In this document: positions 1 to 31,587 of the stretch, in pieces
Numbering within the stretch: position 1 is the stretch's first letter
Layout of the letters: each line of letters begins with the position of its first letter
Source of the DNA: Kipferlia bialata
Lineage: Eukaryota; Fornicata
DNA length: 31,587 nt
Reading direction: 5' to 3'
NCBI GenBank assembly: GCA_003568945.1
Contig: BDIP01000025.1
Location: 1-31,587, forward strand
Translations under genes and position numbers: made by a program
Notes under the pieces: model-generated
Database searches by the model: none
Seen by the model: only the letters and a program-made list of their open reading frames with translations
What the model was told of the DNA's origin: nothing

Positions 1-40
<40 letters not shown>

Positions 41-698: not shown

Positions 699-3600
699 AT
701 GGAGGTGTCTACATCCAAGCCCCACCAGTCGGCACTGGATCTCTATGTACACCAGCTGGAGAACGCCAAGTAAGTTGTGTTGTAGGATCTCTTCTAGTTC
801 AAGCCATTCATTGTATGTATACTGCTCTCTTTGTTGTGGCATCAGTTGGGACAGTGGCTGTTCATGGAGTTCATATCTAGTATCATGATTGAGCGTTGAT
901 AGTGGTTGTAGAGATCAGTGGATTGAGATAAATGTGTATCATACATATGTCTCTCCCTCATTGCCAGGGACTCCCCTGTGTCCAGAAGGCATGCCGCACA
1001 GTCATTCAGGTAAGGAGCAGAGTATTAGGACATTAGTAAGATCGTGCCATGTTTCGGTGTGTATGCTGGCTGTCCCCATTATTACATGTATACACCCTGA
1101 TTTGTCATTCTCGTGTTCGTCTATCACTCTCTTTGTACTACTGTTCTCACCACCAGGATCTGGGTCGAGGAGACTGGGGCCCTGACGCTGTCAGACTTCC
1201 ACAGGACGAGGTGTGTACCCATATTCTCTCTCTCTCTCGCTGTAGGTTCTCCCTCCTTACTGTCTCCCTCACTATAGGTTCCTGGAGCGCATCTGTGAGA
1301 GGCTCAGAAACCTTGTCATCAGTCCCCTGTACTCCGTGGAGTTCGCAGGCATGGCTAGAGTAGTCTCTCTCTCTGCATCTCGTCTTCTGTATTGTTCTCT
1401 CCAACTCTCCATCTTCTCTCATACCCTATTCCTCCCCTGACCACTAGGCCTTGCTGCCATAGCTGAGCTGGTCTCGCACCGTGTTGGTGACACCCCCTCT
1501 CTCTCTGCCATCCTGTGGGAGGCACTGGTGTCGGTCAAGAAGTGCCCAAAGAACGTGTCGAAGGTGCATACATATGTATCCTCCTCTTAACTCTGCTATA
1601 TGTGTATACTTCTGTCTCACCCTCCAGGCCACCCATGCGTCCATGCGGTCCAAGGCACAGTACATGGCAGCCACCAGCATCGGAAAGATAGTCACATACG
1701 AGAGGTGGGTGCTATATGACCATACTATCTCCTGCCTCAAGATATCTGTATTATGTCATCCACACACCCTCCCTCTGACCCCCAGGAGTATGAACCCTGC
1801 TGTCACCCAGTTGCACCTGGTCGGGTCTATCTTCCCTCTGCTCAGGTACCTGACCCATACACCTCTCACTCCTGTATACATCCACCTTACCATCAGAGAC
1901 AAGTCGAGGAATGCAAACATCGGTGCCTGTAGGGTCCTGGCAGCCATCACGGCAGCAGGTGGGTATTGAATGCGGTCCTTTCTATTCACTGTATCCCCCC
2001 CACCCCAGGCGATGGCCGCACTGCCCTGGATGACATTGATCTGGACACAGCATCAGAGCTACTGAGACTGGTCATCGGACACGTGCAGGGTAGGGACTAT
2101 GTATGTGTTTATATTAATATACACTTAGTCACATAGTGTGTATTGCCTCCCATTCTCCCTGACTCACTGTAGGTGACCCTCTAGTGACAGAAGTGGCAAG
2201 GGGGGCATACACGTCCATCATGAGGTGCATCAGACACAAGCAGGTGAGAGATGTGTCAATGAAGAGAGTCTAGAGGGTTCCTCCTTGCCTTCACATCGTT
2301 GTTATTCATTCGTTCTTTCTTCAAACGTCTTCTCCCCTCTCACCCCCAGGTGCTGCCCTCTGGCTCTGCCCTCTCTCTCTCCCAGCGCAGTGCCGCATCC
2401 CTTGAAGGGGACGATGCAGCAGACAGAGCCACTAAGCTCTCGAGGTATTAGATATCATTATATGTACATAGTGTATAATATACCTTATATACCTTGACTG
2501 ACCCCCAGGCGCAGTAGCATCAGCCTTGATGCCACTGGTAGTGATGCCTTCAGCCAGGCACTAGGGGCCAGGTGGGTGCACTTCTGACACAATATGTATA
2601 TACCGCATTGTGACACTCCTTCACTCTGCGCATCTGTGTGTCTCCTCACCCCAGGATCTTCTCCGGCCACCTGCACCAGGTGGTGTATGAGGCCATGGGC
2701 CCGGGCATCATGTCCTCCAACTCTAACGCATCCTCCCTCTCGGCATGTCTGGTGCTGGCCACAGAGGTAGGGGCAGTGGGTGTATAGAGTAGTAACAAGT
2801 ACCCCCCCTCACCCCCAGTACCTTAAGGAGACCCAGCTGCCAGGGGTCATCAAGAACAGGAGAGGCATTGTCACTGCCATCCTGGCTCTGCTACCTAGCA
2901 GGGCGGCCAGAAATGCAAAGGTATAGGAGTGTGAAGACACGTCAGTGTGGTACAGTCTTGTGTATGTCTACCCCTCACCCCCAGGTCCGCAGTGCTCTGT
3001 CCATGGCCGTCCCTGGCCTGGTGTCCAGTCTCAAGGCTATCGAGGCAGAGGATAGAAGGTGCGGCACATGGGTCTCACTTTTAGTGATTGTTTGGGGGAC
3101 AATTCCCACTTTATCTGTACCTATATCATCCCCTCTTTACCCCCAGGTGGGACAGTGAGAGACAGAAGGAGGCGCAGGCCCAGGCCAACAAGGATAGTGG
3201 GAGGGAGGGAGAGAGGGTCAGGGCTCGGAGGGCCAGGGCCAGACCCCCCCTGCCCCACCTGCCCTACCAGGCACCCTCCTCGACCCTGTCGCACTCTCTC
3301 TCCCACTCCATGCAGGCAGGAGAGGCAGAGAGAGACGATACCTCGAGGGTCGGTGGGGGGACGGGCCAGCAGGAGAGGGAGAGAGAGAGTGAGCTGGATG
3401 GCGAGTATGACCTCCAGCCCGCCCCAGTCCCCAAGCCCCTGGGTGATGTGGACACTCTCATAGGCCCTATAGTCACATTCCTGCTGCAGTGCTACGACAC
3501 TTGTGCGGCAGAGTCCGTGGAGTGTAGCAAGCAAGTGTTCACAGGACTAGGTGCGTCTCTATTATGTGTTAAGCTCTCGAAGTGTAATATCAACTTGTAT

Positions 3601-6600
3601 CTAGTTTGAACCCTGACCCCAGCTGCTGTCACTGGGGCTCTTAAGGAGGGCATTGTCAAGTACATGCCCCAGATTAGACCCAGACTCAAGCTGGCTCTTA
3701 GCAGTAACACAGGTGGGTGTATACCCCGTCGAAGTGTGGTTCCTCTGTCACGTTGTATCCATTGTGTACTCTATCTGACCCCCAGACATTGAGTCCGCCC
3801 TGACCCTTGTGCGGTCTCTGGCCAAGCATGCCCCAGAGGCAGTGGCACCAGCTGTGGCCACGATGCTGGACGTGATGCTGAGCAGGTGCGGGGTGTATAG
3901 TGACTGTGTGACGTGTTGTTGATTTCAATGAAGTGTTGATGTTTTTGTCCTTATTTATCATTGACCCCAGGGAACCCACCAAGGAGCTGGTCACTGCTCT
4001 GCAGCTGTTGCACTCCTCTCTGCCTGTCCTTGCATACCCCATCCAGGTATGTAGTGTCTGTATGCATTATATGTATCTGCAATACGCTATTGATGGCTCC
4101 GTTCTGACACCCAGCGCCGTCTCCTGAACGTCGTGTCTCTGACCCTCGCCGGAGTCCCCTTCTGTCTATCCAACACAGCAGCCCTTCCCCCCCTTAGTGA
4201 GAGAGAGAGAGTCATGGCCCAGCACTCCGATGAGGCCGAAGAGGAGAAGGAGAGGCTCAGAAGGAGGGTCGAGTCGCAGTACACTCGGTCAGCCAGTGCC
4301 AAGCCAAGACGGTATGGGAGCCAGTGTACCTCTCTCATATGACTATCTCTTTCTCACCTCCAGTGTGACCACCTCTGTGTCTTCCTCACAGCTCTCCTCC
4401 CTGCCCGACTCTCCCGTGTCAGCACTCTCCCAGGCCTCTCCCACGGTACGTCAACGTATTATATGCGGATCCACCTCATATTGAATGTGTAGTATGTCTA
4501 TGAGTAAGTAGGTGAGAGTGTATATGGAGTCCAATACCCAGGAGAGCCCTCTGTCTGCTGCTGGGCGTGAGATGTCAATGGACATTGCCATGGAGAGGGA
4601 GAGAGACAGTGAGAGGGAGGAGGACCTGACCCGGTCTACTACTGCCAGGGGAGTGCCTAGGAAGCAAGGTGTGTGAGGGTGTCCTTGTGTGTGTCTCCAT
4701 TAACATCACCTCTTCCCCCACCCCCAGGCACCAAGATCCGACTGGTACTGCCTGAGGAGGCCTTCCAGCCCCAGGATGCAGAGCTGCCCAAGAACCTCTC
4801 ACCTGCCTCTCTAAGGTATGACATGCATAGTAACTAGGTCAGTCTGGTTTTTGGTCTTCTCTCTATCCCTCACCCCCAGGGACTGGCAGCGTTCCTGCCT
4901 TGCTCTGCTGTGTCACTTTGACTTCGGCACCTTCCCCCTTACAGACTTTGCAGCACACGTCGTGGCAGGTGAGGATCTATATATATGTGAATATTTCTAT
5001 TTGTGTGTGATGTGTCTCCGACTCTATCATTCCTCTCTCTGACACCCAGGCTATCTAGATGACCCTGACGCCTCCCTCAGACGCCTAGCATGTGCTGCCC
5101 TAGGGCACATCCTGATACCTGATACAGAGCTCAACTCGAGGAGGACAAGGTAGGATCCTTGTAGGATCCATCTCTAAATGTTCATATGAAACACCTCTAT
5201 ACCTCACACTTCAGAGTCCTGGCCCACTCTCTGTTCCTTGCCGGGCACAGGTGCACCATGCTGACTGGGACTGCTATCAGACTGGTGGTAGTGGCTGTCA
5301 CGGACGAGGAGGTGGGTGTATGGCTATGTATCATGTGTGCAAGTGTCTATATATGCCCCTCACCCCCAGCCGTCAGTGCGTCTGGCTGCCTATCAGGCCA
5401 TCCACCCCTTCCTGGACCAGTTCCTCCATCATGACACAGACACCGTGGCACTCACACTCACCCTGGGGGTCAACGACACGGACCCAGAGGTATGGATATA
5501 TATGTGTGGAGTGCACTATTACGTATAGGATACACATCTACTCACCACCCTCACCCCCAGGTCAGGAAGGAGTGTCTGTCTCTCATGGGCAGGCTGAGCC
5601 CCAACAGACCAGCCCTGCTATACTGCCTCAGGTACAGGATACTCGCTATGCATAATTGTATGTATATATCCATGTGTCATATCAGTTCCGCGTATGTTTG
5701 CAAATTCCCCCCACCTCAGGAACCAGTTCAGCTCTCTCCTTAAGAGGGTCACAGATGCCGCACAGGAGCAGGTGGGTTTCATACAGTGACACATATATCC
5801 ACTATAAAACAATTTGATATGGCTAACCCTACCCCTCTCACACCAGGAAGGCCCCTCTGTGGACGTGCCCTCTGACTATTCCTCAGGTGCCTCCTCCTCC
5901 TCCTCGTCCCACTGGGACCAGATGCCCCCCCCTGCACCCACTGGGTATCTGTCCGGCACAGCCATCTCTGCCCCCCTCTCCCTCTCTCTCCCCCATGGGT
6001 CTGAGAGGGAGTCCATCGGGCCCATGTCGCCCACCTCCCCCTCTGAGGCAGGGTATGCCCTGGGGCAGAGTGTCAGCAGGGGAGGTGGCATGGCTGGGCT
6101 GTCTGGCAGGGGTGGGGGGTCGAGGGGGAAGCCCTTCCACACCATCGGCAGTGTCAGTGTCGACATCCTGACCCATGTCATATCACACTCACCCCCGTCA
6201 GTGGTACGTGTCAGTCAGTCTCTCTGCCTCTCCCACTCTATCTCTCTTGTCACTCCCCTCACCCGTCAGATCATGCCGCAGATTGACTCCCTGGTCACCT
6301 CTCTCCTCACTGTCATCAGCGGGGTGTCCCAGGCCAAGCCAGCTGCCCTCACCCTCTCCCTCTCCATATCTCTCAGTGCAGACAACGTCAGGTGGGTTAT
6401 GGAGTTGTTACATACCTCCCTACTCCCAATCCCTCCTCCTCTAGTCTCCCATACTCACCGACAGGGAGCGTGCCGACCAGCGTCTCCACCTCCTGTCATC
6501 ACTCCTGAGGTAGGGTATAGTTGGTATTGTAATCCGTCACTTCCGTTATAACGAGGGACTGGGTTTGATCCCAATTATGACTGCGGGACAGTCTCTCCTC

Positions 6601-9600
6601 TGCCCCCACCCCAGGTGTCTAGGCCATGCCGCAGCTGTGGCCAGGATGAAGATGCTGCCCCACCTCGACAAGTGCTTCAGGTACGGTATTATGCCCATAT
6701 ATCCAACACATCAACCCCCCATTCCACCATCCACCCCAATCAACCCCAGGACCCTGATTGACATCATATCTGTCAGACCCGATGGTACTGCCAAGAGTGA
6801 CCAGAGAAAGCAGGTAGGCGTTGTTGTTCTGCACAGACAAATCAGCTGTTACATCTGACTTCCTCACCATCCCTGTTCCTCACCCCTCAGGCTCTGCTGG
6901 CCCTTTCTAGTCTGGTGGAGCACACGGGATGCTCCTCCGTCCCCCTCACTGTGTATCCTGAGCTCCTGGACCACCTGTCCACCATCTTCCACACAGAGAG
7001 GGATGTGGCTGTGAGGCTGGCAGCCTCAAAGGCCCTAGGTCAGTGGTGTGGATATGGTATATCCATCGCACGTATATTATGCCACTGGGTGTCTCTGTCT
7101 AACCATAGGCACCCTTGGTGCTCTAGACCACCGGAGACTCAATGCTCTAGGACAGGTGGGTACTCACTGGAGGGTTTACCGTCAGCGTGTGTACATTGTG
7201 TATATACAGAAGCACTCCTATATTCACTGACATCAGGTCCGTCTGACCCCTTCCGATGTCTTTGTCGAGGGCAAGCCTCGGTTCTATGTCACTGCTGATC
7301 CCTTCATCCATAGAGACGTCGGTACGGGATATCCGTTGTAGGATGGCGATATCAGTGTTTAGTAATGGGTACAGTCCAGTCCCTCACCCCCAGGCACCCC
7401 CCTCCCACCCCCCATGCGCCATCACGGCCCCCTGGAGGTGGATGCCTCGAGGGCACACCTGCTCAAGGTGGGTACACTTGTTATACCCATCCTTCCTCTC
7501 TCTTTCTTTCTCTCGCTCTCTCTAACCTTTCAGGATGGCAACAATGGAGGCGAGGGTGGAGGTGGGAACCAGGTATGTACTTGCAATTATGCTCTGCATT
7601 CGAATTGTCTCCCTCCCACGTCTTAGTGCACCTACCACCTATTTCATAGTGACTGTCCACTGACCCTAGGACACCAATGCCGCAGATGGAGACGGGGGTG
7701 ACGGCGACCATGGCTCCACAGACCTCATTGTGCAGGTATGGACATGTATAGTACATAGATGCATATGTATAGGAATGGTATGGTGGGATAAGGTTTATGG
7801 TTGTTAGAGTGGTCCTTCCTTGAGTGGTGGATGTGTAACAATTTGTTCCCAATCCCTTACCCCAGGTCCCCCACTATGTGAGCCAGTTTGGGCTTGACTC
7901 TCTGCTCATGCTACTGGAGGACTCTGCACAGTATGTCAGACACCCCATCGTGACAAGGTATGGGAGGGTGTGACATGTACCTAAGGATATGATATGTATA
8001 CCCTCATCCCCAGTGCCCTTTGTGCCGTACTGAGGAGTGGGGACCAGAAGGAACTGGTACAGAGCAGACTGCCCAGGATCCTAGGTACATACTCTATCTC
8101 TCTCTCTCTGCCTCTCTGCCTCCACCTTACCCCCCAGCCGGTATCCTAGCCACTACAGACAGGGCCCACAGGAGGGAAGGCGGCCAGGACACATGCCGCT
8201 ACTTTGTGGAGCAGGCAGTCCTCATGGTGTCATTCACAGGTGGGGGAGTCTACTGTCTCACTCTCTTACCGTGTCTCTGACCCTCAGGCAGCTATGCATT
8301 CCTGTCAACTGGGTTCACATCTGCTCTATTCAGAAAGTACTGGGGCATAGCTCCCCTGAGGCTCCAGGTGTGTGTGCTCACTTGTGCCCTCTCTCATTGC
8401 ATATGAAGATAGAAGTATACATTGTTCAGCACAGTTGCGCCTCCCCCCACCTATCTCACCCACTAGCTGCTAGCCCTGCTTGAGACACTGCTGCAGGCCA
8501 GGAGACAGGAGTTCCTCGGATACCTACCCTTCTTCGTGAGGCCAGTGCTAGGGGTCCTGTACTCCCAGGTCGGTGTGCCTTGGTATATGCATTGGTACCC
8601 CCACTCCTAATAGTCCATCTATATGCCCCTCTAATGCCTAGGATGCTGCCCAGGGTGCAGATGCCAACTCTCGCAAGAGAGAGCGGGAGAGAGAGAGAGA
8701 GAAGGAGAAGGAGAAGGCCAAGGACAAGTCCAAGGACAGCAAGGGTCCGATGTCGGAGGAGAAGGAGAGAGAGAAGGAGAGAGAGAAGGAGGCCAGTCTC
8801 GAGAGAGGTGCCCAGTCTGGGACAGGGGAGGCCTTCCTGTACAGGACACTCCTCACTATACAGGTGGGTTGAGTATCCTGTGTGTATCTGACTAGCCACT
8901 CCACAACATAGTGGACCCTGTCTCTTTACCCCTCACCCCCTTCTCACCCAGGCCATGACCCCTCTACTGAGGGACTACCTGCACAACGTGGTCCCAGCCC
9001 TGCTACACCTACTGGAGACACCCACAGTTAACAGGTGCGATGTGGAGAGATAGAATGAAGGGCCAAGTTTTCATCTCTCAGACTATTGTGTTGAATCCCC
9101 CTCTGTCTCACCCCAGGACCTCTGGCTCTGTTGGCCCTATCGTGTCAGTCCCCACCCAGGTCCGTACCCTGGACACCCTCGAGAGACTGTGCCGCACACT
9201 GCCCCTGGACCTGCACCTCAGCAGCCTCATCCAGGTACGGTCAAACCAGTTCTTTGTGGACGCGCGTGCCTGAACCGTATATGGTCCCAAGTGTCTCCTC
9301 TCCAATACCCGTCCGTCAATTACCATCCCTCTCCCTCCTCACCCCAGGTCCTTCTCCTGGTCATCTCCAGGCCTGATGTGTCCGGTACCTCCCTCATCGC
9401 ACGGACAGCGGTCAGGGTGCTGTGTTGCGCCGCATTCCAGGTGTGGTATACTTGACTCCACAGTATGTGATGGTATCAGTGTGTGTAATGTCTCCAGTAT
9501 GTTGGTCTCATCCCAGGCTGGCTCCCAGTTTGTAGTGTTTGTGCCAGCTGTATCAAGGGTCCTGTCCAGGAAGAATGTAACCAGTGCAGCCACACGGTAG

Positions 9601-12600
9601 GGATACTCTGTACTCTCTCTCTCTCCCCTTATTATGCCCCTGCCACATACCCTCACTCTCCAGCGACATGGAGACCATATGCAACTCCCTCCTCGGGGGT
9701 GTATGGCCCCCTAGGATACCCCTCATGGACAAGTACAACAACATCGTGCCCATATCAGGCCCAGTAGGTACATACTCTCTTTGCATCTCTCTCTCTCTCC
9801 CATGTTGTTCTCTGACTCTAGGCTTTGCCTCTCTGAAGGGCCAGCGGGAGAGGGCAGAGAGAGGCGAGAGGGGCCGTGACGGAGAGTATGACGAGAGGGA
9901 GAGAGACAGGGCCAGACACAGCATGGGGGCAGGCATGTTGGGACATGCCCCCCCGGCCCTGGGTATAGGCATAGGTATACTGCTAATCCCCTGTATACCA
10001 ACTGTATCCCATTGATCCCCCTCACCCCCTAGGCGTTGGCAAGGGCTCCCCTGCCAGGGATGGTGCTCTGACCCGGTCTGTCCAGACATCCCTCCAGACA
10101 TCCATGATGGACCCCTTACAGAAGCTGTGTGCCCAGCTCAGGGTGCCACCTGCAGGTACCCATGATATAGCGTATATCCCCTTCTATCACTACACTTGAT
10201 GCTGAGCCTAACTTGAAGGAGAACCGGACCAGATTGGCTGGATCACCTCTATTGCAGAGACGGCAATCACCCACTCACCATGTGGGGTACTCAGGTAAGG
10301 GTTGGCTCGCTTGCCAGTGTGACATAGTATAGTCTACCTCCACCTACCTGACCCCAGGGCGTGCAGTGTTGTGACTAAGAGAGACGCCAGACTGGCCCGT
10401 AGTCTATTGACTGTGGCCTTCCTCTCTCTCTACGACGACGCAGATATCGGGGACAAGAAGGTGTGTATGTTGTATATCTAGTGTATATATATATATATGT
10501 GTGTGTCTGGTAACTCGCCGTCCCTGACTCCAGTCTCTGGCCGGTGCCCTAGCCCGTGCCGTATCTTCAGACCTGCTAGGCATGGAGTGTCTTCAGATGC
10601 TGCTGGATCTGATTGAGTACATGGAGAGAACACCCACAAACTTCTGTGACGTGTTTGACTTTAGGTGACAATGCTCTCTCTCTCTCTCTCCCACCCTCCT
10701 CCCTCTCCCACCTACTCACCCTCAGGGGTCTGTCCTTCCTGTCGGAGAAGTGTTCGGCCTTTGCCAAGGTACAGACAAATGCATATATACATATGGACCT
10801 GATATCTTAGTATACATCGGCCTAGCATAGGATTGATCTGCTCGATTATACACTTCTATCTGATGCCCACCCCGTCTCCCTCCCCCTGACCCCAGGCTCT
10901 GCACTACCGAGAGAAGGAGTACGAACTGCAGCCCCTCACCTCAGTGCGGTCTCTCATCAACATCAACCACCAGCTGGGTACGGCATCTATATATAGGTTT
11001 ATGTATCTGTCACTACCGTAACCCCTCCCCCCCTCACCCCCCAGGCCTCACCGATGCCGCAGCTGGTGTCATCATGCACATGCAGGTGGGGGTAGTAGTA
11101 CAAGAAGATGTGGGTTGGACGTCAATGTGAATCCACTGTATGTACTGAATATACTTACTGTCTGATGCACAGGTGCGGCAAAGGCTGGAGGAGCTGAGGG
11201 GACAGGCCTCCAAGGAGCACTTCCACGTCAGGACAGAGTACCTAGAGAGACTGCAGGTCAGACTGGAGCCTCCATCGTTTCTCTCTCTCTCTCTCTCTGA
11301 TTCCCCCTCACCCCTAGGACTGGGGCTCTGCCCTTGACCAGTACCAGAGGCGGTGCGGACGGTTCTCCATCTCTCAGGCGAGTGTGTTTCTCTACCCTAC
11401 ACACAACCCCACCCCCATCTGACCCACAGGCCGAGAGGGAGGATGCCCTCTTTGGCGAGTTGAGGTGTCTGTTCAGTCTCGGAGAGTACAGGTGGGATAG
11501 ATCATGTTTACCAATAGTGTATTCAATCTACAGTGACGTATGTGTCTGTCCAGATACCCCTCCTATCCCTCCATACTCACCCCCCAGACAGGCCCAGTGT
11601 ATAGTCAACACTGTGATCTCTGCCCCCAAGGGTCTGGACCCATCGCTCACAGAGACAGCACCCAAGGTAGGACAGGGACTGTATATCTACTCTCTCTCTC
11701 TCCCTCTATCTGCCACCCCCTCCCCCTGACATCCAGGGCAGCAGACTGCACCGTACCCCCTCCCACACCCATGTGGCCATGTCGCTATCAGACGAACAGA
11801 CAAGGCACATGCAGAAGACGAGGGCCCTGGCAGGTAGATACACCCATATTCATTCCCTAAATGCATCTGTATATGTATATCTCCCCCTCACCTCTAGCCT
11901 TCCGCATGGGCGACATGACCACCCTCGCCCTGTATGTGACTGACCTACCCACCGATGAGTACCTGGGTGCATTCCTCAGGGCAGTGCTCGCAGTGCACAG
12001 GAGAGACAGGGCCAAGGTATGCTTACATGTGTTTCTTTAGCATACTCTGTTACCACTCCTGCTATGCTATCTGCTCACCCCAGGCCATCATCTACATCGA
12101 GAGGGCTCAGCGTCTACTGGACCCCAAGTTTGTAGCCCTGATGGCCGAGTCCTATCCCAGGGCCTATAGGATAGCAGTGCAGGCAGCCCAGCTGGAGCAG
12201 CTGTCTCAGATCATCAGGTGCGGGGCGCAGTGCTCTCTTTCTGTCTCTCTCTCACTCTCTCTCTCTGTCTCTCTACCCCCCAGGTACATGGAGACCTTTA
12301 CCGCCGCCGAGCTGGACATCGACATAGGCAGCCCCACCCCCAGCCCCCACTCTCTGTCTACCACCTCAGCTACCATGGACAGGCACTGTAGACTGGCAGT
12401 GGCAGCAGCTGGGGCACCCCATGTCTCCATGGCAGTGGGTACCAGTGGGATAGACGACGGAGCCAGGGTCAGGGGGAGATACATCCACTCCTGGAACCAA
12501 CTCTTGGCAGGTAGAGATGTGTGAATTTGCCTTATAAGATGTGTTATACTCTTTTCAGTGTGTATGTCCACCCACACTCACACCCAGGTGTAGACCCCTC

Positions 12601-18897: not shown

Positions 18898-19349
18898 ACA
18901 GGGATCCATATGTAGATGGGTTCATATACTACTAGGCCTAGTATGACCCTTAAGGATGCATAGTCCCCTGGATGAGAGGAGAGGGCTGTTTCAGTCCAAG
19001 TTTTGTTGGAGTTACGTGAGAGAGAATGGTATTTGTCCCGTGTTTGTTTCTATTCTTTGGCTGGTGAGGGTATCATTTTACCTGATACTGAGTCTCTAGT
19101 CAACCATAAATCGTGTAGATATAGTCTAACGCGATATTTATAGTTAAGTGAGTGAAGTATTCGCATCATTACTCGGCCATTATTCCCCAAGTATTCTTCA
19201 CTCAATACCGATTATCAACGATACACTCCCAGTGACATTATCCCATATGCAATATGACTCAAAATCTATGGCCAACAAGGAAGCAAATACGAAAGAACGA
19301 AACACAACTGTACAACCCCAAACGACAACACACAACACAACCAGGATAC
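18898..19349. other. Intergenic region between two convergent genes
   Basis: These 452 bases lie between the TOR stop and the stop of the minus-strand gene, so both 3' ends and their polyadenylation signals must be here. No AATAAA hexamer is present on either strand near the stops. ATAAAT at about 19106 and AGTGAA at 19151 are the nearest candidates downstream of TOR. Nothing else was recognised. Confidence 0.5.
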
Positions 19350-19519
19350 TTAGTCAAAGTCCACTATCTCGGGCTCCCAGTCAGCATCGTCCTGTCTCTC
19401 TCTCCCTCTCCCTGTCTTTGGGGTCTTGGCCCTCCTCTGCAGCCTGGCATGCAGGGCCACGCCTCTGTCCAGAGTGTGCTAAGGGTGAGACGGAGGTAGG
19501 GTAAGAGAGACACAGATAG

Positions 19520-19550
<31 letters not shown>

Positions 19551-22500
19551 TACCTTGGGGCAGTCGAGCAGGTGGATGATGCACTTGGGGCATGCATAGC
19601 TGACCAGTTTCCCTGTGTGGGGCTCCACAAACCACTGTGCCACAAGGCCCTCCTTGAGTAGAGTGGTGAGGTCCCTACCATACTGGGGTGAGGGGTAGGC
19701 GGGTAGGGAGTACCAAGTACGTCAGAGAGAGGTCACCACACACACCTCGGCCATCGCTCTCCTGACCCCCACCACTACACCGAGGGGCAGCTTGTCGAAG
19801 CAGCGCTTCCGACAGCACTTGAACGGCACCCTCTCCCTCATTGCCTTCTCTCTCTCTCTCTCCATCTCGGCCAGTGGATCAGTCCGTCTGAGACGGCCTG
19901 AGGCACGTGCTGAGGGTAGGGCAGGACTGACAGCAGAGGGGAGACGGACCTCACTGACGGTAAGAACACGAACTCTCAACATACATAGTCAATAACACTA
20001 TGCACAACATGTGTAAGTATTCTTAGGGTACCTGATAATCTCTGTGGCAGGGGTAGGAGGCAGGTCATTGCCCTGAGGGTGAGGCAGAGGGTCGGCACTA
20101 GTAAACCAAAGTAGAACACCTCATTATTGTAACCGAAACACCCACCTCGAAGGCCTCCCACTGCTGCTCTTCCTCCTGCTCTCTGTCTCTGCGTGACCTC
20201 TTTCCCCTTGCACTGCGTGTGGGCAACAGAATGGCTGGTAGGGGTGAGTGTGTCTGTGTGTCGTGTGTGGTGTCTCTACTCAGAGGGGCATGGACGGGGG
20301 ACACATCACTCCTCCTCTTGCTCCTCTTCGAGGTGGATGATGTGGATGATGAACGGGACACAGCGCCACAGTGACCCTCGCCCTTCACCTTGGGTACTCT
20401 GGTAGAGGTAGTCTTCTTCCTACTGGTCTTTGTAGTCTTGGGGGTACCAGGGGGCGTGGAGACGCCTGCTGGGGTAAGAGAGTTCTTCTTGGTAGGGTGT
20501 TGGGTGGGATATACATATCTCAGTGCACTAGCACCAGTATACACTGAGTCCCCCCACCTCTTCTGGGCGTCATGCCATTGGCCAGGTATAGACTGGGGTC
20601 ACGGCACATGGCCTGGGCCTGGGCGTAAGAAGATATAAGAAGGGGCACTCAGTGGAGATGTGTGCATAAAGGCTTGTCCAGAGAGTCCTGAACATCTACA
20701 GCAGGCCATACTCTGTTCCATTGAAATCACAGTCAGACATGCACTCCACACCCCATAGATATACACACACCATACCTTTGTCAGCAGTGTCCTACCGCAG
20801 CTAAGGAGGGTGGTGAGCTGGGGTGAGAGAAACTAGAGAGTACCCGCAGCATTGGCCTGACCCATAGATTGTGGCACACATCCTATGTTGAAATACAACC
20901 ATGGTAAAGCCTTTGTCACAGACCATTGACGTATATATAATAGGGCACCTGTCCGTGTGTCAGCATGAACTTCTCCTTCTCAGGGTCCCACAGATAGTCT
21001 CTGGCATCAGGGAAAGGGTACAGTGGTAAGATACATACAACAGAGGCTATACCATTTTGCATCAAACATTTCAAATTATACTGAGGGTGGTATTGTACAC
21101 TTGGAAAACTAAACTACATAACAACAGGCAATCGAATGTATGAGCACCCAATATCCACCCCCACCTTATGAAGACCCTCTTGGCAGCCCCTGCCTCCATG
21201 ATAGACAGCTTGTGGGTCTCTATCCTGGTGTTCATACGGATCAGGGCATTGAGCATGGCCTTGGTGTCGCCCTGGTGTAGGTGTAGGTACACATTGACTA
21301 TATCTATATATATATACGAATGAATATATGTATTGAGTGGTACAATCCAACACATGAATGATTCCCCCATCCACAGTGTACCTAATCACTCACATGTACA
21401 TACCTTATACTTCTTCAGATCCACCCCCCCGTATCTCTGTGGGGTATCTGCAGACAGAGCAAATGTCCTAGAGGGAGGGGTGCTAGGTACAGAACTAGGG
21501 GCAGACGGCAGCCTGCTGGGGTGAGGAGAGTGCATATATGCATAGCAATACATGTGTGGGTCATTAGATTACATGTCCACCTGGGTGTACTGGGCACACT
21601 AGCAGTCCAGTGACTACCACTGCTAGAGTCCTTGGTCTGGGCATCGGCTTGGCCTGCCTCCTGCGATCAGTCTCTCTCTCTCTCTCTATCTTCACGTGAT
21701 CACAACAAACATTTATCAACTCAACCACCAAACGCACTAAACTATAGTATTGCAATGACACTCTCTCTGCATATACAACACCCATCCCACCTGAGATAGC
21801 ATCTCTGCCACAGCTATGTCCAGGAACCGTTGGGTGTCTGTCCTCATCAGCTTCTGCAGGGCCCTGACAGTCAGGGGGGGGGATATATACAGTCTATATG
21901 CATACCAGAAACATCATATGTATCTATGCACTCTGTATATACTGTGTCTCCTCACCTTGGGCACATTCTGACCCTGTATGCCCCGACCTCCAGGTCATAC
22001 AGGTGCTCGAAGAAGAAGGCCTTCTTGAGATCAAACACCTCATCCTGGGGGTGGGTATATGTATATACATATATTATACATATATACATATAACACTTCA
22101 TCCTGGGGTGGGGGGGGGGGGTATCTAACATATACATGCCACAACATATCCACATGCACCCACCCTTGTCTTGCCCTGTATCTGTCTGTCCAGCCGGGCT
22201 AGACTGCGCATCAAGGTGCGCTGGGAGGATCTACGGTCAGCGTCGATACTACCTTGAATACGTATATTGGAGAAGGGACTATATTCCATGTTGACACCTG
22301 TTGAAAGAAGATGGAAACACCGTACTGAAATTCAGCTATTATTCAGTAATATGCATAACCACACTCCCATTGACAGTGTATAGTACATGTATGCACCGCT
22401 CACTCTGGGAATGTCTTGAAGCACTTGTCCCTACAACACCTAGCAGTAGGGAAGGGCCTGACATCGGCAGAGTCCTCTGGGGTATTAGAGGGGGGGTATA

Positions 22501-24478
22501 GGATGTGGGGTATATATTAGGGGGTAAATGGACGCTGCACACACACACACACCTGACACCACCTCACTCCCTTCCTCTCCCTCTGACTCAGACCGCTCAT
22601 CCACCCACTCCTCCCTCTCAGAGGAGCTCTCTCTCTCCCTCTCTCTCCTTGCCTCTCTCTTACTACTCTTCCCCACACTCCTCTTAGGCCGGGACTGCAC
22701 AGCCACCCTCCTGGCACTCCTGCTAGGCCTAGACCTACGCCTATCACGTCCATACTCACTCTCGCTCTCACTCTCTTCCTCTGTCCCTTCCTCCTCCACA
22801 TACTGTGAGGCCTGGGTCTGGGAAACAGACACAGAGGTCTGAGAGGGGTGGGGGGGCTCAGACTTGACCCTCATGAAGAGAGAGAGAGACTCGGTCTTGA
22901 CTGGGTAGGTACCGGACTGGAGACCGTCTAGGGCTATCTAGGGTGGGAGGAGAGAGGGTGGGAGCAAGCGAATGTATACTAACACGCAGGTGCGAGAAAA
23001 GAAGAAGAGATAATGAATTATCGCAAAGTATACAATAGTGCATATAACACTACCTGTGAGGGGAGAGAGGGTGGGTACACACTAGGGTCACTAGGGGAGG
23101 GGCTGTTGCTGATGGATGGCTCGGTGGATGCTGCGGCAGAGTGGGGAACACGGGGCTCCTCCTTGACCTCAGTCTTGATGGGCCAGCCCTGGGGTAAGGG
23201 AATATATGGTGTGATACACCTCTAGTATGCATGTGAATACCCATGTCCCGCACCTGTCTGTCCACTATCGGGCACCTCAATAGGGAGGCAGATGACCCCC
23301 CGAAGAGGTGGGACCCTGACATCTGGCCGATGTCCCCCTTGATGTCCATTGTCAGGGGAGACCCCCCCAGCGGCACACCGTCCTCCCCCTCCGCCTCCCC
23401 CTCCCCCTCCCCCTCACTCAGACCCAGACCAGACGGAGTGGCACTCACCTCCTGTCCGTCCTCATCCTCCTCCTCTGCCAGGGCTGCCTGTATCCTAGCG
23501 TGCAGTCTGGCTGCTGCCTCTGCCCCTGTCTCTGTCTCACCCTCTGACTCCGAGGCCTCTGCACCCCTCTTGGCCCTGGGGGGCAGGGCATCCCCACCCT
23601 CCAGGGCATCCTCCCCTGCCCGCTGTCTCTCTCTCCTGTTCCTAGAGGCTCTGCACTGTCAGGGGGTGCACATCGTAGATCTATATACAATATAGAACAG
23701 GGAGCAGTATCAACCAGTATCAAGTCCCATACCTGCCACTGACACACAGCACAGAGTCCTCGTCTGCATCGGAGGCATGGACTGGGGTGAGGGGGGGGGG
23801 GGCTTGCAGATGAGACAATTGTATGATAGTAATAGTGTATAGAGTGTGTATCGAAACTTAGTGAGTGAGGAATCAGGTATGAAAGACAGAAAGCAAATGT
23901 TCCACTGTGGATATGTCTCTCTATATAAAACTATGGGCCGTAAACATTGGTGGGGTATATTGATGCCACAACATTATTAACCAGGAGAGTCAACGTCATA
24001 TACATACACATAGTGATGGAGTTTGTATCGATACACATATAGATGTCCATATCCTGTGCGTACCTGAGACCTCCTCCTCCGAACTGACCACTGCCTGGTG
24101 GTATATCTCACTGGAGGACCCGTCGGTGTCACATCTGGGGGGTCAGAGACACAATGAGAGTAAGGTACGGTGCAACAGAGGTAGAAGTATGTTCGTGTCG
24201 ATAACAGAGTGGGTATGCAACCAAACACCCAGTCAGTGTATATACACCATGTTCATGATAACATAAGGGTGGCGGCTAGAGCACCAGCGAACACTATAAA
24301 GCACATAGACAGCATACCACCATATATGGAAGAGACCCATGTAACAAGTACTGAAGCATACATGCTCTATAAACAAACGAATGCGTACATTGTGTCCCAG
24401 TTGCCAGTGGCCATTAGCACGCCCTACACACCGGCTGCAGATAGTCCACTCCTCAGTCAGACAACAAGAACAGGACAT
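19350..24478 (-). CDS. Unknown 890-residue protein with two Cys modules, 22 exons
   Basis: The family is not recognised. Exons in transcript order: 24478-24432, 24134-24064, 23781-23733, 23650-23254, 23188-23054, 22937-22553, 22476-22404, 22278-22164, 22044-21956, 21863-21791, 21660-21581, 21515-21404, 21271-21165, 21000-20949, 20817-20776, 20618-20558, 20468-20280, 20234-20146, 20072-20032, 19953-19746, 19682-19554, 19478-19350. They total 2,673 nt, all in phase, with TAA at 19352-19350. The N-terminus is Cys-rich (MSCSCCLTEEWTICSRC), followed by acidic and basic low-complexity sequence. Four sumoylation-type motifs lie at residues 192-260. A Cys module spans 374-470. A helical part (about 500-610, LNALIRMNTRIETHKLS, DYLWDPEKEKF) follows, then a Ser/Lys/Arg-rich linker and a second Cys module at 781-848. 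The tail is acidic (WEPEIVDFD). A nuclear, chromatin-related role is inferred from composition only. The start exon is the least certain. Confidence 0.8.
19523..19550 (-). repeat. (CT)14 tract in the last intron of the 890-residue gene
   Basis: A pure GA dinucleotide run on the plus strand reads as (CT)n in the transcript. It begins right after the donor AAG|gtatct at 19553. It is the longest dinucleotide run inside an intron here. Confidence 0.9.
19554..19820 (-). other. Cys module, copy D
   Basis: Residues about 781-848 of the 890-residue protein, in exons 20-21. It begins KCCRKRCFDKLP (Cys782, 783, 787) and continues with RRAMAEYGRDLTTLLKEG. It then has VAQWFVEPHTGKLVS and a second cluster ACPKCIIHLLDC (Cys836, 839, 846). 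The six cysteines and the following His suggest zinc binding, which is inferred rather than known. Confidence 0.65.
21956..22441 (-). other. Cys module, copy C
   Basis: Residues about 374-470 of the same protein, in exons 7-9. It begins RCCRDKCFKTFP (Cys375, 376, 380), followed by an Arg/Gln-rich helix (QRTLMRSLARLDRQIQ). It then has AFFFEHLYDLEVGAYRVRMCP, in the place of the WFVEP...CP element of copy D. The second Cys cluster is reduced to Cys452, so this copy may bind metal differently. Confidence 0.6.
22034..22113. repeat. Direct repeat duplicating an intron-exon junction
   Basis: The 22-base stretch at 22034-22055 (aacacctcatcctgggggtg) recurs at 22092-22113 with one substitution and a one-base length change. 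On the minus strand each copy reads caccccag|GATGA[AG]GTGTT, so the true 3' splice site of exon 9 has a decoy 58 bases upstream in the transcript. Use of the decoy would shift the frame. Confidence 0.8.
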
Positions 24479-25953
24479 GCGAGGAAACGCAAGTGGGGAA
24501 TGGAGTGAATGGGAATTGAACCCTATCCCACTCAGGTTTGAATCGGGTCCTCTATTAACAGTTTGGAAGTGACTTACTGAGATTCTATGACGGCGGCTTC
24601 ACAACAACACCTGCTCTGGATAACAGTCTGGCTAGGAGTTCTCAATACGTTATCATAAGGCTTCTGGTGATAAGAATACTCGGGTGAATGATCCTGAGAG
24701 AGAGTGAGCCTGACAGTTGGAGAGAAAACTGTTGCTTGCAAGGGTAGATCTAACGAAATGAAAGACTGAACTCTTCCGATAACCCATCGGACCGATGAAC
24801 GAGTATTCCACCCTACTATGTGTACCTCGTTTACTGTACTTATCATTCCACTACCAATTGACCCGATATATTTTGAGACCATTGTGAGTGTTCCACCGAA
24901 ACTTCACACACTATCACGTGTAGCAACTTGCTACTAGCAAGTGTGACAAGTCAATGGCGAAGCACGTCTCCTTTCCTCAGAAAGCCCCATCATATAAACA
25001 GGCCATGGTATAATTACGTGATGACCTTAGAATATCTGTGACAGGATGAGTCACTGTAGGCGAAACATACTTGTGGATACAGACACACGAGCTTCTGGAA
25101 ATAGCGGATGACTCTATGATGACTCCAGTGTGGTCTCCAACCGGCCACTGCGTACTTATACGACGGCGATCCTACTAGCATTGATAGGAGTTGGTACTTC
25201 TCAAAGACAAGTTCTCATGGTGTAGCATTATCAACACTTATGGTCTTGATGAATATGTCCACCGTCACTGACCCTTACATATCTGGCTGAACGAAAGGTT
25301 CTCTGTCCTTTACAATGTTGTTTACATACTTAGAATTCTCTTCACTGCGTCTTACCGAGTCATGATGTCTAATCAATGTTCAGTGCGATGGATGGTTGTG
25401 TCTGAACGTCAGCATGGGCATACCGGTCCCGCGAGTTGTAGTAATGGTATGTCAATTATCGACGCAGGATATGTATAGTAGAAGTACCAATAACATCTGT
25501 CCTCCTCAATAATTCTCACTTTTCGCTGGAACTCAGTGTGAAAACCGCAGTGTTTGACAACCTGACTGATGACTAGGATTAGAGTCATTCCATTCGAGTG
25601 ACGGCAACGTCTTAGCACTGTGCTCTGATGTCAAGCACCTGGGGGTTACCCGTCTGAGTCACTACGTTTACGAGCCTCGTAACGAGGTCTTTCTGATTTG
25701 CATCAGATGCCATAGCTACACGACAGCGGTGTGTGTGTGCAGTCTTTGGGTCATTGAGACTGACCCAGTATCAATACATGCTCAGTATCCCTTAGTACCT
25801 CACGTGCAGGAATCACAAACCAGGACACCTGTCATACCAGGGACACCAGTTGACAAATATAGTCTATTCCAAACGTTACAAATAACACAAAACTCAATAA
25901 TAATACTACCAACACTCGATAACACGGAAACCTCACCACTACACTCCACTTGC
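24479..25953. other. 1.5-kb region without a convincing gene
   Basis: Base composition and texture change here: the C-rich splice acceptors and GA-rich exonic sequence vanish and the sequence looks of mixed composition. It contains the 5' flank of the 890-residue gene and the 3' flank of the large charged gene. The longest open frame, 24574-24882 on the minus strand (102 codons), has a good donor (TCTCA|gtaagt) but no recognisable protein. Several short perfect palindromes occur: ACTTGCTACTAGCAAGT at 24926-24942, CCTCGTAACGAGG at 25675-25687, and GCATCAGATGC near 25700. No RNA gene was found. Confidence 0.5.
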
Positions 25954-26566
25954 TCACTTAGCCCTGCGTCTGCGAGACCTGGATGCGAGGAGCATGTGGG
26001 TGCCGTTGGGAGTGGTGGCCGGTGAGCTCTGTGACGACCCTGGGACAGCTAGGCTGGATGGGTATGGAACCGAGACAGTCCTCTTCCTACTGCTTCTCCT
26101 CGGTGTGCTAGGGGTGGTGGGTGTCTCAATCTGGATGGACTCAGAGACAGAGCCCTCGACAGTGGCCTCGGACTCCACCCCTGCCTCTGACCCAGGCGAG
26201 GGGGTGTGCACCTTGGCGACCCTCTTAGGCCGCGTAGAGGTAGCAGTGACAGTGACGCCTGGGGTCTTGGCCCTGCCCCTCCTAACAGGGGTCACAACCA
26301 GATCTGGAGTCACACTGCCGTAGTTTGCCTTCCTCTTGGCTACCCTCTTGGTCCGACTGGAGGCAGCGGTCACCACGGTCTCCCTGGGAAGGGGTCTCTT
26401 CGCTACCCTAGAGGACACACCCTCGCCCTTCTTAGCCCTCCCGGACCTGGTGCTAGGGCGGCGGGCCTTGCTGGCCGGTGTGGTTGCACCACTCGTGCCA
26501 ACAGGAGTACGGGGGGTGACGCCTGCCTTGGTAGCCCCCCTACCACGTCTAGGGTATCTGGAAGAG

Positions 26567-26597
<31 letters not shown>

Positions 26598-29500
26598 GGG
26601 GCGGCACCAGAGGCACAGGCTCCCCGTCTGCCCCCAGTCTCTTGATGTACCATGGGAGCTGCCTGAGAGAGCTGAGTTGGTATGATGTTATGGGGGGCTC
26701 CACGAACCCCACAGCAGCCATCTTTGCGATGTGCTCTGTCTCCCACTCTCTGAAGGCGGCATCACTAGCAAGGTCAAAGGGCCACAGGTCCTTCACCTCC
26801 TGCGGCGAGAACTGCAACGGCTCTCTAACCTCGTCCAGTGTGTGAAGAAGGACACCCTCAGCAAGAGGGTCTGCACCTGGTACACTCTCCCCACCATCCG
26901 CACCATCCGCACCATCAGTACTGGTACCAAGGGGGCATGGGAGGCCTGGGACACCGACAGCGGGGACCTCCACCTCTGTGTGATCTGCCTCTGGGAATAC
27001 AGGCAACACAGGCTGTGCACCAGCCTCAGCCTCAGTCTCTGGCTGGGGCCACATGGGACCAGTACTATGGGTGCCTAGCAGAGTGGTGCCTAGGTCCATG
27101 TAGGAAGGGGGATCAAGCATGGCGATCGGGCTGTCACAGGGGGCCAGGGACGGCTCCAACAGTGTCTCTGCCACACTAGAGGTGGAGGAAGAGGCGTCGC
27201 GGGGGACCGCCTTGGGAGTATGGGGTACAATCAGGTCTGGCTCACTAATAGCAGGGACTCGCACATCACCGGAGTGGGAGACGGAGTCAGTCTGGGAGAC
27301 CACAACGCCTCCCTCTCCCTCTCCCTCTCCCCCCCCCTCTCCCTCTCCGTCACTCTCTGCAACGACAGAGGTCTCTACCGGGACCACCGGAACCTGCGAA
27401 TGCACTACGGGAGTCGGCTCAGGAGACGATAGGGGAGCCTGGGCCTCGGCCAGAGGCTCCTCCTGGACAGCAGCAGAGCCATCACCAGCCACAATGGGGT
27501 CAGATGGGTCTTGGGTACTTAGGCCATCGACAGAGACAGGAACATCGGCTGACTGGGGCCTATCAGAACTCTCGCCAGTGGGAACCTCAATCTCTGCCTC
27601 TTCTTCCACCTCTGCCTCTTCCACCACCTCTGCCTCTTCTTCCACCTCTGCCTCTGCCTCTGCCTCTGCCTCTGCCTCTGCCTCTGCCTCGCTGTCTTGA
27701 GTCGCCATCCCCTCAGTCCCAGGCTCAGCTGTGGGAGAGTACTCAGAGGTGGTCTCTGCGCCACTGGACAGAGGGGTGTCAGAGGAGGTGGAAGTGGGAG
27801 CGTCAGATACGGTGACCTCACTCCCAGTCTCATCTGCCACCCCCTCCTCTTCACCACTAGCTGGTGTCTCACTGGCGTCTGTACCGTCCATCTCAACATC
27901 CCCTGCACCCTCGGTGACCTCCTCTGCCACAGGAGGGGAGGACTGCCGCTGGGCATCTCTGTCCCGCCTCGCCTGGGCCATCTCAGCCATCTTCTGCTCC
28001 TGTTCAAGCTTCAGGCGCTCTCTGTTCTTAGCCCTCTCCTCTCTCAGCCTCGACCGCTCCTTCTGGCGGGCCTCCCTCGCCGCCTCTGCCTCTGCATCTT
28101 CTATCACGATGGCAGCGTGTCTCTCGGCCTTCTGGGTCAGACGGTTGATACGCTCATCCTCCTCGTCCTCCTCCCGCTTCCTCTCCTCTCTAGTCTTTCT
28201 CCTGGGCTTCACCCTCACCTTAGTTTCCCTCTCCTCCTCTTCAATCTCCACCTTCACAGAGTCCTGACGAGCAGACCCCCGCTCCCTTCTCTCCTTGGCT
28301 TTCTCTCTCCGCTCCTTCATTTTCCTGTCTCTCTCTTCCTTCTCCTTCTCTCTCTCAAGCCTCGCCTTCTCTCTCTCAAGCCTCGCCTTCTCTCTCTTAA
28401 GCCTTGCCTTCTCTCTCTCCCTCTCCTTCTTCTCCCTCTCCCTCTCCTTCTTCTCCCTCTCCCTCTCCTTCTTCTCCTTCTCCTCCTGCTTCTTCTTGAC
28501 AGCCTCTGCCTCCTGCAGCGCCTTCTCTCTCTTCTCCTTCTCTCTCTTGGCCTGAGCCTTGGTCATACGGGGTGTGACGCTAGGCTTGCTGGCTCCCTTT
28601 CCCTTCCCTCTAGCCTTCGCCCTGCCCTTAGTCACTGCCTTCTGCACCTCTGGGATCACCTCTGGCACCACCTCTGGGACCGGAACAGTCACCTCATGCT
28701 CCTCCCCTGCCCCCACCTCCTCCAGAGACTCTTCCTCGGTGTCGGTCTCAGCACCAGTCTCAGCACCAGTCTCCGCCTTAGTATCGGCCACAGCACATGC
28801 CACAGTGTCAGAGTGCGGAACAGCCAAGGTAGGAAGGCTGGCAGAGACAGAGACAGGGGCAGACACTGCGGCAGAGGCAGCTGCAGTGACAGTGACATGC
28901 TCAGGCAAGGGAGAGATGGACGGCACATGGGAGTAGTGGACCATCGACACGTCCCCCATTCCGCCACCCTCCATCTCACTGGCCTGGGTCGTCTCCTCGT
29001 CCTCCTCCCTATCCTCCGAGCTGCTGCTGCTCTCCTCCTCCTCAGTCGCAGCCTCCAGAGACGCCTTCACCTGTCTGATCTCCTCCTTCTGGGCCTTGGC
29101 AGCCTCCTTGGCCCTCAGGTCAGCCAGTCTCTTGGCCTCCTTATCCTCCCTAGCCTTCTTGGCGGCTGCCCTCTTCTGGCGCAGAGCCTTGGCCTTGTCG
29201 GCCTTAGCCTTGGCAGCTGCGGCCTTGGCTGCGGCAGCCACCCTCTCTGCCTCCTCCTTCGCCAGCCTCTCCTTCTCCTTTGCTCTCTCCCTGGCACGCT
29301 TCTCCCGCTTCTCCCTGGCTAATCTCTCCTTCGTCTCCTTCTTGCCCTGGGCGGCGCTCTTGCGCTGAGGCCTGCCCTTGGAGGTGGTTGTCACGCCCTT
29401 GCTCTCGGCCTCTGCCTTGAGGCTGGCCTTGAGAGCTGCAGCCTCCTCGGCACGCCTCGCCTGCATCTCCTCCTTCTGTCGCTGCTTCTCCCTGGCCTCC

Positions 29501-31587
29501 TCTAACAGCACGGCCCTCTCCTCAGGAGTCGCCTCCTCCAGCTGCTTCTTCCGTGCCTCCTCAGAGGCCTCTCTGTTCTTGGTCACGGTCTCGGCATTCA
29601 CCATGCGCCTGATCTGACTGTGAGTACGCCATAGTTAATAGAACAGAGATCGATGGATGAAACACACTCATATACATTACATACATGTACAAGTATGGTA
29701 CCTTGGTGACGAGCTTGTTGCTGACCCTGGTGATGATCTGGATGCACCTGTAGCAGCAGGGGTTGAAGGGGTCGTAGATGAGTCTGATTACGGGGATGGC
29801 CGGGTGCTGCAGTCCGATAGGGGTGGGGGGAGGCATGGCGTCGATCTCATGCTGCATCTTGAGGATCAGCTCACGCTTCTCCTTGGGGATGCTCCTGAGA
29901 CAGACTGGCGTGAGGGGGAGGCAGGGATAAATCACATATGCAGACCAACACAGAAGAGTATACGCCAAGTATAGCACGACCCACTCACACTTGGTGCAGC
30001 ACTCGTAGTCGAATGTGGCCATGCTGGCCGGCTCTGTCTTGGGGGGCAGGCCCCGGGAGTGGGTCTTGTGGGGTGTCTTGTAGGGGGTGGCCGAAGGAGT
30101 TGGCTTCTTCTTTGGCTTGGGGGTAGGCTTAGCCTTGGGGGCAGGTCTCGACCGAGTAGTGGTGGATGTGGTGGCCCCGCGCCTGGATCTCGTCTCCTGC
30201 TTCACCTTGACCCTGGCCCCAGCCATGGCTCCCTTCCTACCCAGGGGTATGGTGAGGGCCCCTGCCCCCCTCCGAGGCCTAGTGTCCTTCTTGGCCTTGA
30301 CCGCCTTGGGCTTGCCGGCCTTCTGCACCTGGAAGGAGTGGTCCTTGGTGAGCCACGGCATGGGCGTGGCTCCCTTGCCCTTGCCCTTCCCCTTGCCACC
30401 AGAGGGCTCCTTGGGCCTCTCTCTCTCCTTCCTCTCTGCCTCCCGAGCCTCCCACTCCCCAAGCTCCTTGGCCTGCTGGGCCCACTCCATGCTCTCCTTC
30501 ACAGCCAGGAGCTCTCTCAGCACGCTGAGGTTCTTGCGGGTCTCTCTGCTCTTCCTATGCTCCTTCAACTGCTCAATCTCCCTCCTGATGTCTAGGATCT
30601 GGGTGCGCCTCCGAGAGATGCTGGTGTGGGAGTTGCCCTGGTACACCTGGACATCAGTGACATGTATGGAGGGAAGTACTGACTACAGTATTGGGGGTGG
30701 TTCGGTACCTTAGTCATGCAGCCACTGGGGTCCACCGACAGGAATCTACCCCAGTCAGCAGGAGGAGCGGGACTCTCGGAAGACGAGGGAGAGGGAGAGG
30801 CGGAAGGAGACGGAGAGGTGCGGCGTGGGAAAAGAGCAGAGCGCTTGACCCCTGACTTGCCCCTCCCGGGTGTGTCTGCCTCTGCCTCTCTCGAGGGGCC
30901 ACGGGTACGCTTGGCAGGGTGTGTGGGGGAGGTAGAGGCAGTCGCCGGTCTCTTGCTGCTCCTGGAGAGGGGATGCCTGGTGCTGGACTCAGAGACAGGG
31001 GCGGAGGGGGTGCGGTTCTGAGGCTCGTCATCCTCCTCGTCCCCTGGTAGAGGAGAGTGGGAACCATCCTGCGTAAGAACGTCGAGGGAGAGAACACCGA
31101 TCACATTCAACGCACACACACTGTAGTGTTAGAGCACCCACCTTGCTGCGGGTCATAAGGACGTCTCCCTGGGCCTGTGTCTCGGGACTGTGGGGCTCCA
31201 AGGGGTGGAAGCGTCTATAAAGGAGGGCCTGTGGTGTAGGTTCGTAACAAACAATAACAGTGTCACAACAAAGTCAGTGAGCGCACTAGTACGGTATATA
31301 CACGGTAGCAGATGCACACTTACGTTGAAGCACTGCCTCCTGGTGTCGTCCATGTCGGCATTGCCTAGACACTCGTGGATACCAAAGATGCACATGATCC
31401 TGGGTCAGAGGGATAGAGAGAGAGAGGGGGGGGGTATTGAGAGACAGACCATACGCACTCCTTGTTGTTCATGCGCCCTGTTGCTGGGTCCAGGAACCAC
31501 TTGGCGATGCACTGCGTGATGGCGTCACTGGGGTGGGTGGGGGGGGGGGGCATGGGAGAGAGAGAGATAGAGAGAGAAACTGATAGA
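25954..31587 (-). CDS. 3' part of a gene for a large charged, probably nuclear protein
   Basis: The family is not recognised. Visible exons in transcript order: 31527-31459, 31399-31324, 31228-31142, 31068-30709, 30646-29989, 29904-29702, 29613-25954. They give 1,703 residues and a TAA at 25956-25954. The 5' end lies beyond the right edge. Numbering from the first full codon: residues 1-36 are the end of a Cys module (copy A). Ser/Pro/Arg-rich sequence follows to about 200, then a helical segment (RREIEQLKEHRKSRE) and a Lys/Pro-rich linker. Cys module copy B is at 412-471. The last exon encodes a long Lys/Glu/Ala helix with EREKK repeats, Glu/Ala repeats and an acidic Ser/Pro region. A short ordered patch follows (FSPQEVKDLWPFDLASDAAF), then a basic tail with AT-hook-like RRGRG, SGRAKK and RRGRAK and a final RSRRRRAK. 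Chromatin or nuclear-scaffold roles are inferred from composition alone. Confidence 0.78.
26569..26598 (-). repeat. Hexanucleotide repeat encoding Pro-Val
   Basis: About five copies of GGGACA on the plus strand encode alternating Pro and Val (PVPVPVPVP). They separate the ordered patch of the large charged protein from its basic tail and probably form an extended linker. Confidence 0.85.
27595..27690 (-). repeat. Hexanucleotide minisatellite encoding Glu-Ala/Val
   Basis: Imperfect then perfect CTCTGC units on the plus strand, perfect from about 27644 to 27690, encode a run of Glu-Ala dipeptides followed by Glu/Val-rich imperfect copies. It lies in the acidic half of the large protein. It is likely to vary in length among isolates. 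Confidence 0.85.
28345..28482 (-). repeat. Tandem 21-nt and 18-nt repeats encoding a charged helix
   Basis: Three copies of a 21-base unit encode KARL[EK]RE-type heptads and about three copies of an 18-base unit encode EREKKE-type hexads. Their regular i to i+4 Glu-Lys/Arg spacing is typical of single stable charged alpha-helices rather than hydrophobic coiled coils. Confidence 0.8.
29702..30004 (-). other. Cys module, copy B
   Basis: Residues about 412-471 of the large protein. The junction of exons 29989 and 29904 forms ECCTKFCLRSIP (Cys413, 414, 418). It is followed by a helix (KRELILKMQHEID), then IRLIYDPFNPCCYRCIQIIT (Cys466, 467, 470). Spacing and flanking residues match copies C and D, with DP in place of EP or EH. 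Confidence 0.65.
31324..31527 (-). other. Cys module, copy A (second half only)
   Basis: The first visible exons encode CIAKWFLDPATGRMNN and then IMCIFGIHECLGN. This aligns with WFVEPHTGKLVS and CPKCIIHLLDC of copy D. The CCxxxC half would lie upstream, outside the window. Confidence 0.6.

Follow-up and report, generated by a model that had tools for sequence, protein, structure and literature searches.

In a survey of 50 species, Irimia and Roy found an anchored distance between the branch site and the terminal AG of the intron in Yarrowia, Trichomonas and Giardia, all of which are intron-poor (PMC2483917). A weak branch consensus was found in every intron-rich species of that survey, with less than 22% of introns sharing one branch hexamer, and constrained spacing was interpreted as convergence in intron-poor lineages (PMC2483917). 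We investigated a 31,587-nucleotide (nt) stretch of the fornicate Kipferlia bialata (assembly GCA_003568945.1, contig BDIP01000025.1, positions 1 to 31,587 of the forward strand; hereafter the window), which holds about 120 introns in 31 kb. Nearly all of these introns have an acceptor with a composite element, YTNAC followed by a few mostly C bases and AG, in which a putative branch site is fused to the 3' splice site.

The closest described systems are metamonad introns. The cis-introns of Giardia duodenalis, CT[A/G]ACACACAG, are likewise fused, and their distance of 7 nt from the branch A to the intron end equals the mode in the window; however, Giardia has a handful of introns, with a purine preceding the A and ACAC as the spacer (PMC10711314), whereas in the window the preceding base is most often C, the spacer is C-rich and the spacing varies over three bases. 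Type A introns of Trichomonas vaginalis, GYAYGY...RCTAACACAYAG, are also fused, with the branch adenosine 7 nt from the 3' splice site, a spacing shared with Giardia (PMC6260720). Trichomonas differs from the window in having about 32 introns, a near-invariant CTAAC and a constrained 5' splice site, while in the window CTAAC is rare and the 5' splice site is weak. Spironucleus introns, RCTAACAARHTAG, show that a fused motif also occurs in another fornicate, with a pyrimidine element directly upstream of the branch site as in the window; unlike those of the window, they are few, and their fixed spacer, of the AARHT type, exceeds that of Giardia by one base (PMC6679479). Outside the metamonads, the branch motif of Yarrowia lipolytica is likewise anchored next to the AG, 2 nt before it, but this is a fungus with 719 introns in the survey, a strong ACTAAC and another spacing, and the case is considered convergent (PMC2483917). 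The available portion of the Kipferlia genome paper describes GU-AG boundaries (PMC5874029). We found no prior account of a fused acceptor motif in Kipferlia in the open-access literature, including that portion of PMC5874029.

Most of the introns lie in one gene, identified by phmmer and gene models:

699..18897, plus strand: TOR (target of rapamycin) kinase gene, about 3,410 codons, 97 introns

The C-terminal 1,318 amino acids of its product matched human mTOR at E=4.7e-175 (phmmer against PDB), a match that covers the FAT, FRB, kinase and FATC regions; the protein ends in GWCPEW. Gene models gave a total of 124 introns, 97 in TOR, 21 in a minus-strand neighbour (gene B) and 6 in a second one (gene C); the gene B intron 22439-22249 was unreliable and was left out, giving an analysis set of 123. 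Three TOR acceptors, at 2172, 10218 and 12587, were set by the reading frame in place of 2190, 10257 and 12605. The introns had a median length of 76 nt (range 48-282) and a density of about 1 per 145 nt of coding sequence. This matches the value calculated from published figures for Kipferlia, 1 per about 139 nt; its draft genome has 124,912 introns and 17,389 genes (PMC5874029).

The results showed that YTNAY with its A 4-6 nt before the AG was present in 105/123 introns, the looser YYNAY at the same place in 120/123, and NAC in 111/123. The distance from A to AG was 3, 4, 5, 6 or 7 nt in 2, 35, 52, 18 and 0 introns, respectively, and each remaining distance out to 60 nt accounted for only 0-5 introns. 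Measured to the intron end, the A thus lies 6, 7 or 8 nt away (35, 52 and 18 introns), with a mode of 7. The original prediction had placed this motif in nearly all introns, with the A about 6-9 bases from the AG; the motif and its closeness to the AG are real, but its frequency is about 85% in the strict form and 97% in the loose form, and the distance does not extend to 9.

Among the YTNAC forms, CTCAC was the most common (54), followed by CTGAC (23), CTTAC (11), CTAAC (3), TTCAC (2), TTTAC (1) and TTGAC (1). When the motif introns were aligned on the A, an alignment whose T and A are invariant because introns were selected for the motif, position -3 was C in 96% and position +1 was C in 92%. 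The base directly before the A was C in 58%, G in 25%, T in 11% and A in 6%. The three bases after +1 were 70-76% C, and pyrimidines made up about 76-85% at the positions 4-9 bases before the A. The yUnAy core of U2-type branch sites is present in 105/123 introns, while the CTRAC core of metamonad fused introns is not the rule, since only 31% of motif introns have a purine at the position preceding the A. The fit to metamonad fused introns is one of architecture and not of exact sequence family. In two minus-strand acceptors, ending at 29614 (CTCACAGTCAG) and 23651 (CTGACAGTGCAG), a tandem AG was observed inside the motif; in these two, the modelled AG may face competition from the one closest to the presumed branch point.

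We then compared the motif with its chance level. It occurred at 6.9% of all AGs on the plus strand and 2.7% on the minus strand. Real TOR acceptors carried it in 87/97 cases, compared with 20/254 unused AGs of TOR introns and 34/963 AGs of TOR exons (Fisher p ~1e-50). The coding strand of the TOR region contained 18 copies of the exact sequence CTNACCCCCAG, where dinucleotide shuffles predicted 0.1, and the opposite strand contained 0.

Introns were also placed without reference to the acceptor sequence. A spliced protein alignment to human mTOR, in which GT/AG was the sole splice requirement, yielded 19 introns; YTNAY was present in 16/19 and NAC was in place in 19/19, and all 19 acceptors agreed with the final model. 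These plus-strand acceptors, taken from the alignment and without an acceptor model, were as follows:

15279..15289 (+): fused acceptor CTCACCCCCAG
15459..15468 (+): fused acceptor CTCACCCCAG
15781..15790 (+): fused acceptor CTCACCCCAG
15986..15996 (+): fused acceptor CTCACCCTCAG
16146..16156 (+): fused acceptor CTTACCCCCAG
16319..16328 (+): fused acceptor CTTACCCCAG
16531..16540 (+): deviant acceptor CCCACCCCAG, C for the T of YTNAC, A in place
16717..16727 (+): fused acceptor CTGACCCCCAG
16871..16881 (+): fused acceptor CTCACCTGTAG
17104..17114 (+): deviant acceptor CCCACCCCCAG
17270..17279 (+): fused acceptor CTCACCCCAG
17479..17489 (+): fused acceptor CTCACTGCCAG
17659..17670 (+): fused acceptor CTCACCCCCTAG
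17864..17873 (+): deviant acceptor CCCACCCCAG
18103..18112 (+): fused acceptor CTCACCCCAG
18361..18372 (+): fused acceptor CTCACCCCCCAG
18491..18500 (+): fused acceptor CTCACCTCAG
18627..18638 (+): fused acceptor CTTACCCGCCAG
18830..18840 (+): fused acceptor CTCACCCCCAG

A codon-only decoder, which relied on the codon usage of TOR and on an intron model lacking its last 18 nt, recovered the motif at 68/92 TOR acceptors and 11/19 gene B acceptors; where its TOR acceptors differed from the final set, only 1/15 had the motif. An untrained decoder based on codons, GT and AG only gave YTNAY with the A 4-6 nt before the AG at 40/77 acceptors, a number to be taken as a floor because many of its introns were merged or wrong. 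Against a chance of 3-7% per AG, these three acceptor-blind placements confirm the motif. Two deviant acceptors named in the original prediction also proved real:

7522..7533 (+): acceptor CTAACCTTTCAG, from the splice model and direct reading of the sequence
10207..10218 (+): acceptor CCTAACTTGAAG, in-frame alternative to 10257 that keeps the reading frame open

Taken together, the sequence evidence makes it likely that these are U2-type GT-AG introns, with a few GC-AG, whose composite acceptor consists of YTN, the A, a C, 3-5 mostly C bases and AG, and that the A is the lariat branch point, 6-8 nt from the intron end. The original proposal that the A of YTNAC is the branch point agrees with its confinement to 4-6 nt before the AG. 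Moreover, no second peak of branch-like motifs was found 7-60 nt before the AG among the 123 introns, and upstream AGs were not excluded: in the interval 12-43 nt upstream of the acceptor, 95 AGs were observed against 102.9 +/- 8.2 in shuffles, and 58 YAGs against 61.6. Another AG lay within 30 nt upstream of the used AG in 38 introns. Because upstream AGs are undepleted and a second branch-site peak is lacking, the branch point is unlikely to lie at the usual distance of 20-40 nt.

Several observations weigh against this assignment. About 15% of introns lack the motif T, mostly as CCCAC, and the acceptors of gene C fit the motif less well. Those of genes B and C came from a model trained on TOR, the codon-only decode excepted. 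In addition, the prevalent C, in place of A, before the motif A pairs poorly with canonical U2 snRNA (small nuclear RNA).

The strongest competing explanation, which we nevertheless regard as unlikely, is that the motif is simply a strong acceptor, a C-rich tract plus CAG comparable to TTTCAG of C. elegans, and that the real branch A lies upstream in an unrecognisable context. C. elegans is indeed intron-rich and has a strong 3' consensus with no strong branch site (PMC2483917), the spacer is rich in C, and the CCCAC deviants would also pass for a simple C tract. However, the general branch-site core, YTNAC, is recognisable in the conserved T at two bases before the A and in the C that follows the A, and an upstream branch point should exclude the AGs that occur as often as expected 12-43 nt upstream. 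No branch-like peak was present at 7-60 nt.

U12-type or hybrid introns, in which a short fixed distance from branch point to AG is normal, are a very improbable alternative. Strict spacing is a U12-type trait, and Giardia snRNAs have mixed U2/U12 traits (PMC6679479). The donors of the window, however, follow a weak MAG/GTRNGT profile (slash at the exon-intron boundary; 2.0 bits over +3 to +6), and the branch motif is a short CTNAC; neither the U12-type RTATCCTTT donor nor the TTCCTTAAC branch site was seen in the donor and branch profiles of the intron set. U12-type introns also have longer distances from branch point to AG, about 10 nt or more, which counts against this alternative. The termini, GT(GC)-AG with a U1-complementary donor, are those of U2-type introns. 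Two GC-AG introns were observed in TOR, 1349-1447 (cag/GCATGG) and 11378-11429 (cag/GCGAGT), both of which keep the frame and have standard fused acceptors.

Finally, it is hardly credible that the pattern is an artefact of how splice sites were placed, by hand or by model, in low-complexity sequence rich in C and T. CT runs are indeed abundant in the introns, and an acceptor matrix entered the refined gene models; however, homology-only and codon-only placements blind to the acceptor gave the same pattern, and the unused AGs of the same introns rarely had it.

If the A of YTNAC is the branch point, the U2 snRNP (small nuclear ribonucleoprotein), with SF1, and an AG-reading factor would recognise the composite element together, and a fixed ruler would take the place of a polypyrimidine tract and scanning for the first AG. 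The distance is cut off sharply at both ends, which suggests a ruler-like reading. The C spacer, at 3-5 nt, leaves no room for a conventional U2AF65 tract; a longer C/T-rich stretch lies upstream of the A. Because the standard U2AF65 footprint exceeds 3-5 bases, pyrimidine contacts, if any, would be displaced upstream of the branch point, or would be dispensable. The original prediction saw here poly-C replacing poly-U, which is doubtful: Giardia and Trichomonas have no 3' polypyrimidine tract (PMC2483917), so that relative to them nothing was replaced.

We next compared the window with the classes of the 50-species survey, in which strong branch consensus means one WCTRAY-type hexamer in >50% of introns. 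The best such hexamer, CTGACC, was found in 13% of introns, so that on the survey's metric the window has a weak branch consensus like that of intron-rich species, despite its anchored spacing. The free hexamer CTCACC was found in 39%, above the intron-rich range, a value not comparable one-to-one with the survey because its metric admits only WCTRAYN forms. The window differs from the fused systems described above in combining densely packed introns with weak 5' splice sites, a loosely defined CTNAC core and a C spacer. Since spacing is anchored in these intron-dense genes without a strong WCTRAY consensus or strong 5' splice sites, spacing and motif strength are separable. That an arrangement recorded in species with very few introns occurs here suggests that fixed spacing is not merely a by-product of intron loss.

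The likeness to Giardia and Trichomonas put forward in the original prediction holds for the spacing, the modal distance from A to intron end being 7 nt in all three. Kipferlia, Giardia, Spironucleus and Trichomonas may have inherited the fused architecture from a common ancestor, in which case it would be older than the intron loss in the latter three lineages. Common descent in fornicates and parabasalids is attractive because the oxymonad Streblomastix lacks the fused spacing (PMC1501061). Tentatively, and with somewhat more doubt than confidence, we propose that the fixed spacing of Giardia and Trichomonas did not arise through intron loss. Fornicates and parabasalids would have had an intron-rich ancestor in which such spacing already prevailed and in which branch point and AG were read as a unit without an intervening polypyrimidine tract, and in Kipferlia U2 snRNA or the branch-binding protein would tolerate or prefer C before the branch A.

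Massive intron gain, as first suggested, did not find support. The window introns contain no introner-like repeated family, the similarity they share being limited to low-complexity sequence and simple repeats, and the authors of the Kipferlia genome favour an ancestrally intron-rich state (PMC5874029). Their minimum free energy per nt was only slightly below that of mononucleotide shuffles (-0.171 versus -0.156).

The fused motif predicts specific changes in U2 snRNA, SF1 and U2AF. Candidate snRNAs were not found in Kipferlia in an earlier study (PMC6679479), and Rfam and tRNA scans detected no snRNAs in the window; the motif provides a constraint for the search for Kipferlia U2 snRNA.

The remaining features of the window belong to the two neighbouring genes, defined by gene models and the codon-only decode, the two acceptors being from the gene model:

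19350..24414, minus strand: gene B, unknown family, about 21 introns
20469-20478, minus strand: gene B fused acceptor CTTACCCCAG
19683-19692, minus strand: gene B fused acceptor CTCACCCCAG
25954..31553 (limits approximate), minus strand: gene C, unknown family, 6 modelled introns

Gene C may continue past the window edge. Pfam gave no usable family for either gene, and no loci related to the window were found in viral and prokaryote contigs. Genes B and C showed weak mutual similarity in a Cys-containing segment (CCxxxCxxxxP; WFxxPxTG; BLASTP E=0.003), and on this similarity they are possibly a locally duplicated domain family of unknown kind. Inside gene C, an open reading frame of 1,216 codons (25954-29604, minus strand) is rich in Glu/Lys/Arg repeats and has no clear introns, in contrast to its intron-dense neighbours. 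At the start of the window (1-53, plus strand), a run of 39 G is followed by GA repeats and looks like an assembly end.

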